6,441 nt of DNA, from contig DAOVAK010000166.1 of the NCBI GenBank assembly GCA_030671095.1, positions 1 to 6,441 on the forward strand, written 5' to 3'. This DNA comes from Deltaproteobacteria bacterium (lineage in GTDB: Bacteria; Desulfobacterota; DSM-4660; Desulfatiglandales; HGW-15). Position numbers and translations under genes: made by a program. The notes beneath the pieces are model-generated. The model had not been told where the DNA came from and searched no databases. It saw only the letters and a program-made list of their open reading frames with translations. Each line of letters opens with the position of its first letter. Position 1 is the stretch's first letter. Below, one piece after another: positions 1 through 1,263 of this stretch.

Positions 1-246
1 CTCTTTGTGATAGATATACTCCCGGCTGGCGGCCCCTTTGGCACAGAGGGTCCCTGCACTGTGAGGGTTGCTCTTGGTCCCCTCCACTTTTATAATGACC
101 CCATCTTTGACGTAAGCGTCTATGCCACAGTGGGAAAATGGGTTGCAGATGGCGCAAATGGTCTGCCGGATTTCCACGTCACTCTCTTCCACTGGTACTT
201 TGCCTGTGGGTATCCGATTTGCCTCAAAGTACGTGTTGATGCTCAT
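1..246 (-). CDS. Second molybdopterin (bis-MGD) oxidoreductase large subunit, N-terminal fragment cut by the left window edge
   Basis: The minus strand is open from an ATG at 246 to the window edge, giving 82 codons with no stop. The protein starts MSINTYFEANRIPTG and holds an N-terminal [4Fe-4S] motif: Cys31, Cys34, Cys40 and Cys68 (CX2CX5CX27C). After Cys40 comes GIDAYVKDGVIIKVEGT, followed by a GTLCAKGAASREY block. This is the classic layout of the first domain of DMSO-reductase-superfamily enzymes, where the cluster passes electrons to or from the Mo/W-bis-MGD site. There is no Tat signal before the cluster, so a cytoplasmic location is likely. An AGGA at 258-261 lies 11 nt before the ATG, a long spacing, so the start is probable but not certain. 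The gene lies downstream of the ferredoxin and first large-subunit genes and was probably in their operon before the 265-562 element inserted. The catalytic part is outside the window, so the substrate is unknown. It shares the CX2CX5C spacing with the other large subunit. Confidence 0.85.
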   Translation of the reverse strand, partial: MSINTYFEANRIPTGKVPVEESDVEIRQTICAICNPFSHCGIDAYVKDGVIIKVEGTKSNPHSAGTLCAKGAASREYIYHKE

Positions 247-256
247 GATGCTGTTC

Positions 257-264
257 GTCCTTTC
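257..264. repeat. Left target-site duplication GTCCTTTC
   Basis: This is identical to 563-570 and abuts the left end of the inverted repeat exactly. It becomes 9 bp if C256 and C562 are counted, C562 also being the last base of the right inverted repeat. On the minus strand this copy reads GAAAGGAC and supplies the AGGA that may serve the second oxidoreductase gene. Confidence 0.75.
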
Positions 265-326
265 GTAACACTTTAGCCGTTTGAAAAGCCCTTGGGCTAA
301 GCGGCATTCTCTGGAGGAGCCAAAAA
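265..326. repeat. Left terminal inverted repeat of the MITE-like element
   Basis: It consists of an outer 22-nt block (265-286) and an inner 33-nt block (294-326), joined by only 7 nt (agccctt). The inner block contains TTCTCTGGAGG and ends in GCC followed by an A run. It pairs with 486-562. The short connector can fold by itself (AGCCC, TT, GGGCT at 287-298). Confidence 0.8.
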
Positions 327-485
327 ATTTGCTCGGTGCCCTTAAGTATGGCGCACAAAGCGAAGTAGCTCTGAAAGCGGTGTTCTGTCATCATTGAACT
401 TGGGCCGGTCTTTATTTGGGCGGCCTGTGTGCGCAGGCGTCATGGCAAGGGAGGCCGTCTAAGAAAACCTGCGCAGAAGGCAGGG

Positions 486-562
486 TTTTTGGCCCCTCCA
501 GAGAACCCCGCTCAGCCCGCCAAGAGTTTTTGCACGGCTGTTTCAAAGGGCTAAAATGTTAC
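486..562. repeat. Right terminal inverted repeat of the MITE-like element
   Basis: It begins with a T run and GGCCCCTCCAGAGAA (complement of the left inner block, 486-518). A 22-nt connector (519-540) follows, then the outer block TTTCAAAGGGCTAAAATGTTAC (541-562 overall). It is 15 nt longer than the left arm because of the connector. Confidence 0.8.
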
Positions 563-570
563 GTCCTTTC
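563..570. repeat. Right target-site duplication GTCCTTTC
   Basis: This is identical to 257-264 and abuts the right end of the inverted repeat. It lies 36 nt past the stop of the ferredoxin gene in the direction of transcription. Confidence 0.75.
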
Positions 571-606
571 TATACTTTTCCCCTTCAATCAGCCGCCCGT
601 TCTTTC

Positions 607-1263
607 TCATGGTCTGTCCATTCTCGGATTTTCGATGACCCTCTGTTCTACCTGTTTCCACGTATTCCTTGGGAAAATATAGGAAACTTTTGGATGGGTC
701 CCCTCGGATGCAAGCAATTGTTCAGACTTCCTCAGTTTCTCCCGAATAGGACTATTAGGATCATCCAGGTCCCCGAAAACCATGACCTTTGACGGACATT
801 CTGCAACACATGCAGGTTCTCTTCCCTGATCGATTCGATGTACGCATAAATTACACGTGGAAGCCTTTCCGGGCGGATGCATCCGATGGGCTTCTGCAAT
901 CCCTTCGAAGGGTAGGTTTTGCCCGGGGAAATAATCCTCTTCGGGATTTACATCAATGACGCCGTATGGACACGCCTTAATGCACTCACCATGCCCCTGA
1001 CATTTTTTCTGATCAATAAGGACAATTCCATCCGGACGTTTGTAGATCGCATGTTCCGGGCAAGCTTCAACACAAGGCGGACTATCGCAATGCATACAGG
1101 CGTACCGGAAGTATATGATACGGTCGAGTGACTCACTTTCCAATTCCAAGACCCTGTTCCACCACACGCCCGGTCTGGTAAAGTTTTCCTGTTTGCACGC
1201 TATGACGCATGTCATGCAACCGGTACACCGATTCAGATCAAGGAGTATTCCGTATCTCGCCAT
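607..1263 (-). CDS. Four-cluster [4Fe-4S] ferredoxin-type electron-transfer subunit (DmsB/PsrB/NrfC family)
   Basis: This 218-residue protein would carry electrons to or from the molybdenum subunit encoded just upstream. The Cys groups, in order, are C13-C16-C19-C23, C56-C59-C64-C68, C88-(H91)-C94-C98 and C137-C140-C152-C156. Together they fit the four-cluster arrangement of the CISM small subunit family. The third group reads KCQGHGECIKACP: the position of its second cysteine holds His91, so it may bind a [3Fe-4S] or a His-ligated cluster. NarH has Trp at the equivalent place and binds [3Fe-4S]. About 38 residues separate C98 from C137, a longer insert than in many relatives. The segment ECPSKVMVFGDLDDPNSPI after the last cluster is typical of PsrB/PhsB-like proteins. 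No signal peptide or membrane helix is seen. The ATG has a very strong AGGAGGAGG (1271-1279) 7 nt upstream, and the gene begins 34 nt after the large-subunit stop, so the two are co-transcribed. The exact partner reaction is unknown. Confidence 0.93.
   Translation of the reverse strand: MARYGILLDLNRCTGCMTCVIACKQENFTRPGVWWNRVLELESESLDRIIYFRYACMHCDSPPCVEACPEHAIYKRPDGIVLIDQKKCQGHGECIKACPYGVIDVNPEEDYFPGQNLPFEGIAEAHRMHPPGKASTCNLCVHRIDQGREPACVAECPSKVMVFGDLDDPNSPIREKLRKSEQLLASEGTHPKVSYIFPRNTWKQVEQRVIENPRMDRP

Follow-up and report, generated by a model that had tools for sequence, protein, structure and literature searches.

What is the 298-bp sequence that separates two genes of a molybdopterin-oxidoreductase operon in this Deltaproteobacteria contig and, if it is mobile, which transposase moves it? 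The sequence lies at 265–562 of the window (the whole stretch of DNA analysed, 6,441 bp) and is hereafter referred to as the window element. It has inverted ends GTAACANTTTAGCCNTTTGAAA and is placed between exact 8-bp duplicates GTCCTTTC. Judged by its sequence, the window element is mobile DNA, a genuine IS66-type MITE. We consider it probable that this MITE was inserted in the operon and that the likeliest supplier of its transposase is a transposon of about 2.36 kb, here termed DruA-IS66. The features on which the argument rests are the following:

1–246, minus strand: downstream gene, molybdopterin oxidoreductase Fe4S4 domain (Pfam PF04879, E 3e-14), cut by the window end
257–264: left copy of the target duplication, GTCCTTTC, read from the sequence; exact copy at 563–570
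265–562: 298-bp non-autonomous element (MITE), recognised by its inverted ends, exact duplication and relatives with other duplications
265–286, plus strand: left outer inverted repeat GTAACACTTTAGCCGTTTGAAA, 20/22 against the right end
294–326, plus strand: left inner arm, 33 nt, 88% complementary to 486–518
327–485: unique interior, without recognised coding or RNA family (Pfam, Rfam, locus comparison)
486–518, minus strand: right inner arm, 33 nt, 88% complementary to 294–326
541–562, minus strand: right outer inverted repeat GTAACATTTTAGCCCTTTGAAA, 20/22 against the left end
563–570: right copy of the target duplication, GTCCTTTC, read from the sequence; exact copy at 257–264
607–1263, minus strand: upstream gene, 4Fe-4S dicluster protein (Pfam PF13247, E 8.9e-24)

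Both outer ends fit a 22-letter pattern, and positions 7 and 15 are the only two at which they disagree. With up to three mismatches allowed, 0.01 matches to this end pattern are expected in the window, and two matches were obtained in 0 of 200 shuffles. The inner arms are paired at 29 of 33 positions (294–326 with 486–518). In the alignment, the full arms measure 62 nt (265–326) and 77 nt (486–562), and the 15-nt difference between them is therefore real. An initial reading made from the sequence alone (the sequence-only reading) had described the 20/22 outer repeats, the 29/33 inner repeats and a duplication abutting the element exactly; the sequence confirms all three, GTCCTTTC adjoining the element on both sides over 8 bp without a mismatch. 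That reading attributed the unequal arms to divergence after the element had formed, which may be the case. The same reading held that nothing inside encodes a transposase, which agrees with our results: two open reading frames of 50 aa or more extend far into the element (224–394, minus strand; 416–682, plus strand), and neither matched a Pfam family. The window element, lacking the IS66 transposase gene that defines an autonomous IS66 element, is thus not itself an IS66 insertion sequence. It has the properties of a MITE, being short, with terminal inverted repeats, a target-site duplication and no transposase gene, and dispersed copies with the same ends are present in other genomes. Its GTAACA ends and 8-bp duplication are of the IS66 type, and its full end motif is common to transposase-bearing IS66 elements.

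The element sits between two minus-strand genes, 607–1263 and the start of 1–246; further upstream are a second molybdopterin oxidoreductase gene and genes for a branched-chain amino-acid ABC transporter. When the element and one duplication copy are subtracted, the gap between the two genes is 54 bp. The duplicated 8-mer, read on the minus (coding) strand as GAAAGGAC (563–570 and 257–264), resembles the Shine-Dalgarno sequence of gene 1–246. Because the insertion duplicated it, a Shine-Dalgarno-like copy would remain before that gene, and the insertion may have left its translation intact. Among 85 genomes of the class to which G001 belongs, the closest match to gene 607–1263 is in G001 itself (MAG Meg22_1214_Bin_272), in which five operon proteins are 77 to 88% identical. 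The sequence downstream of this gene is different in all six relatives compared that carry it: the window element is absent at this place in 6/6, and gene 1–246 was not found beside gene 607–1263 in their stretches (one of which ends 544 bp on). We also searched all loci with the joined flanks of 60 elements with duplications of 7/8 or 8/8, the window element included. No empty site was found by this joined-flank search; the two spanning matches were both of L100, which contains two elements 15 bp apart, on itself.

The exact end pattern (20 fixed letters) occurs in at least 114 stretches of the genome contigs searched. The ends are not confined to the window, and the refuting outcome named in the sequence-only reading, a conserved intergenic structure present here alone, is not what was observed. 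Most titles among the listed matches name Deltaproteobacteria, Desulfobacterales, Desulfobacteraceae or Thermodesulfobacteriota, mostly Desulfobacterota MAGs, and a few name Planctomycetota, Brocadia, Nitrospinota, Deferribacteres or no group. We counted 1801 ends with at most one mismatch (8 to 499 per genome) in 20 genomes, each picked because it had a match, compared with two for the reversed pattern; one hairpin becomes a member of a large mobile-element family. With a slightly different pattern, ends were present in six of eleven genomes picked for transposase matches (64 in G316; control 0), and six further genomes gave ends in G371 only (13; control 1, in G109). No exact match to the end pattern was found in viral contigs, and the window element had no match in plasmids (distant blastn, E 1).

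Interiors vary between lineages, and it is therefore the ends that define the family. A DNA search of the 20 genomes with the whole element returned matches of 22 to 42 bp, confined to element ends, and the element without its 26-bp ends matched none of the loci fetched; no copy of the same interior was found. In seven loci (L003, L018, L059, L100, L011, L050 and L056), several interiors contain phrases common to lineages, for example CCCCCTTTTTCAAAGGGGGA and TCTGACAGGATAA, as if the ends had captured, or had been inserted around, other repeats. Many ends in G001 have a contig end some 100 bp away, as expected of a repeat. The MITE family may break assemblies and shape the operons of environmental bacteria.

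Evidence of movement comes from the duplications. The fetched loci, window excluded, yielded 253 distinct ends. For 75 of these the sequence on the inner side was shorter than 720 bp, and pairing was possible for 108 elements. An exact 8-bp duplication flanks 51 of the 108, 13 are at 7/8 and 44 at 6/8 or fewer. By comparison, exact agreement was seen in 0 of 1080 cases when the right 8-mer was shifted by 3 to 12 bp and in 0.06% of 11,556 permuted pairs between different elements. Since loci were chosen for their ends, some for two facing ends, the number of ends is biased and the duplications are not. The 51 exact duplications represent 49 different 8-mers, AT-rich in the middle, which is the sign of mobility that the sequence-only reading had named. 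These 51 elements are 69 to 446 bp long and share the end consensus GTAACANTTTAGC(C/T)NTTTGAAA, in which positions 4 (25% not A) and 5 (26% not C) are variable; each position of the TTTGAAA block (16–22) is conserved at 91 to 98% among the MITEs.

These results bear on an alternative to mobile DNA, namely a conserved intergenic structure, whether RNA hairpin or regulatory element. Its location within an operon and its strong fold would suit such a structure: as single-stranded DNA, 257–570 folds at −76.3 kcal/mol versus −48.5 kcal/mol for shuffles (z −6.96; none of 100 shuffles folded as well). Yet the relatives lie elsewhere, in unrelated flanks, with their own duplications and different interiors, no Rfam family reached its cut-off anywhere in the window, and the relatives with the neighbouring gene do not have the element there. 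We regard a hairpin of this kind as next to impossible, and the element as a MITE.

Which transposase, then, recognises these ends? Of the 20 MITE genomes, 9 have IS66 (PF03050) matches, as do 128 of the 291 genomes in the class of G008. An automatic search near IS66 genes (GTA...TAC ends, 13/22 alike, exact 8-bp duplication, frame of at least 380 aa) recovered 36 full-length, duplication-bounded IS66 elements. All start with GTA, which was a search criterion, and most with GTAA. One of them (L363) is within 2/19 mismatches of the MITE motif at both ends; the next best has 4 and 6, and the other 35 have different ends. The end groups agree with the transposase tree: for 41 rows and seven groups, six changes are required, the minimum possible, with the groups named from the ends and the support of one group only 92/88. 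The tree also includes five added rows for which no duplication is shown: two of the three rows in the DruA group and all three in the DUF6788 group. The classical IS66 group (GTAAGCG) and the GTAAATATTCGG and TTCACGGGG groups were rejected as partners, their ends being too different.

The L363 element (same place as L233; G025) spans 2361 bp; its 25-bp ends are identical, it is flanked by an exact duplication TTCACTGA, and a DruA-family frame (PF14236) overlaps its IS66 transposase frame. It is nested in an ISBst12-like IS66 element, which has its own exact duplication TAAAAATG (3351–7436 of L363). Related elements are found in L246 (G112; 79% transposase identity), which is cut by the contig end and has one end at 0/19 mismatches, and in L364 (G331; 58% identity), with one end at 2/19. 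When the L363 transposase was later used to query the 85 genomes in the class of G001, a single match was obtained, at 63% identity, in G413, a member of the class of the window's nearest relative. This element (L419) comprises DruA and transposase genes between GTAACAGTTTAGCTCTTTGAAA and GTAACACTTTAGCTCTTTGAAA over 2364 bp; its flanking 8-mers differ, so there is no duplication there. Mobilisation by an IS66-like transposase, which had been inferred earlier, is thus supported by full-length IS66 elements with the same end motif (L363, L419, L246 and L364), and the suggested comparison with IS66 termini gave 0/19 mismatches at both ends of L419 and 2/19 at both ends of L363.

The same ends are shared with short elements at the level of individual letters. 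The GTAACAGTTTAGCTCTTTGAAA end of L419 recurs letter for letter in G013 and G016, and ends identical to that of L246 are on short elements of the same two genomes. One G016 short element (L384, 3202–3490) combines a GTAACAGTTTAGCTCTTTGAAA end with an exact duplication; another (L397) has one GTATGA end, as in G025, and one GTAACA end, also with an exact duplication. The gene adjoining the transposase matches PF14236 in L246, L363, L364 and L419 (E 1e-32 to 1e-36). The PADLOC DruA model matches the L246 gene weakly (E 1.1e-5), and a sequence comparison of the L363 DruA with solved structures gave no match at E 0.1.

Other IS66 subgroups could move the MITE instead, namely DUF6788-IS66 (ends GTAACAGTTTAGTCC) or ISBst12-like single-gene elements (ends GTAACTATTCAGC). 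DUF6788-IS66 elements also have GTAACAGTTTAG, and their ends are only 2 to 6 of 19 mismatches away, which counts against a DruA-IS66 partner. Two MITE-bearing genomes (G316 and G272) contain fragments 60 to 75% identical to the DUF6788-IS66 transposase, and a third (G008) contains an ISBst12-like element with an exact duplication. By contrast, the TTTGAAA block (positions 16–22) is absent from most DUF6788-IS66 and ISBst12-like ends, and in nine ISBst12-like elements each end departs from the motif at 4 to 9 positions, against 0 to 2 for DruA-IS66 ends. We therefore judge these subgroups unlikely suppliers. IS66 elements or remnants with ends GTAACAGTTTAG(T/A)(C/T)C are present in L219 (1865–3916), L290 (G284), L291 (G180) and L327 (G190); L219 has a DUF6788 gene too, and carries two copies of its left end 15 bp apart.

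A transposase from outside the IS66 family, sharing GTAAC ends and 8-bp duplications by chance, might be considered because IS66 matches occur in just 9 of the 20 MITE genomes. No element of such a kind was seen, and the whole motif is on DruA-IS66 elements, which makes this explanation very improbable. In L051 (334–2893), two MITE-type ends lie 2560 bp apart, with no duplication and a 430-aa frame between them that we take to resemble an IS110 transposase.

The preferred partner, DruA-IS66, has difficulties of its own. Its transposase is scarce where MITEs are common: at E 1e-50, two classes with MITE-rich members gave a match to the L363 transposase in 1 of 85 genomes and in 0 of 8, respectively, and G025 and G331, which carry DruA-IS66 elements, are without canonical MITE ends. 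MAG bins often lose repeats, and the absence of the transposase is therefore weak evidence. Further points against this partner are the 44 of 108 paired elements with duplications at 6/8 or fewer, the missing duplication of L419, the presence of IS66 transposases of any kind in just 9 of the 20 MITE genomes, and the failure of both the six relatives and the joined flanks to reveal an empty site. In five MITE genomes (G006, G010, G011, G014 and G018), the DruA genes were not flanked by paired MITE-type ends; a lone end (L275) and a 73-bp element (L277) are near them. Two doubtful matches came from a generic screen for long inverted repeats bordered by duplications.

In the mechanism we propose, a transposase supplied in trans would recognise the 22-bp ends (blocks GTAACA, TTTAGC and TTTGAAA) and insert the MITE between two co-directional genes, leaving the 8-bp duplication. 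Its likeliest source would be the transposon of about 2.36 kb in which a DruA-like gene precedes an IS66-family transposase gene. We infer that the DruA-IS66 transposase moves the MITEs and that DruA takes part; the DNA could move by either copy-and-paste or cut-and-paste. A broader proposal is doubtful, albeit conceivable: the DruA-family protein, known from Druantia anti-phage systems, would be a working part of the transposition machine, short elements, up to hundreds in a genome, would have spread from DruA-IS66 through Desulfobacterota and into Planctomycetota, and the 22-bp ends alone would be enough, with almost any interior carried. The analysis points to a transposase that can be tested and to an accessory gene belonging to a defence-protein family; this transposon, the likely partner, is more novel than the MITE itself.

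DruA-like genes adjoin varied transposase genes in regions of G018 and G011: with IS66 TnpB and TnpC in L272, with IS66 again in L273 and next to a frame with a DUF772 transposase domain in L282; in L283, DruA-like and Tnp_DNA_bind domains are in one frame. As such genes lie beside, or are fused to, parts of other transposases, the defence protein may derive from transposons, or the reverse.

Among the matches listed, the open-licence literature contained no IS66-linked MITE family with these ends, and none of the open-licence papers searched combined DruA and IS66. The text of a YprA helicase preprint contains no word starting with "transpos" (PMC12458937), and DUF4338 is termed a GNAT domain in an excerpt of another paper (PMC10853773). 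An excerpted table gives a value of 8, read here as repeat length, for two Paracoccus IS66 elements (PMC3281130). The window element resembles bacterial MITEs in being short, with inverted ends, a target duplication and no transposase gene. The gene adjoining the transposase shares its PF14236 match with Druantia DruA (PADLOC DruA1). Unlike Druantia DruA, it is inside a transposon, and no Druantia helicase gene was seen in the two-gene 2.36-kb elements. ISDge4 (IS66 family, ISBst12 group) is described as having GTAAC-type ends (GTGACTACTCAGCA and GTAACTGCTCAGCA) and as generating an 8-bp direct repeat when it inserts, both as in the window element; it encodes a transposase and is without TTTAGC/TTTGAAA blocks, whereas the window element encodes none (PMC12898284). 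According to PMC12888890, tIS66 are IS66 elements with passenger genes and, like DruA-IS66, combine the IS66 family with an extra gene; the example there has a resistance gene and classical GTAAGCG-type ends, whereas DruA-IS66 has a DruA-like gene overlapping the transposase gene, and other ends.
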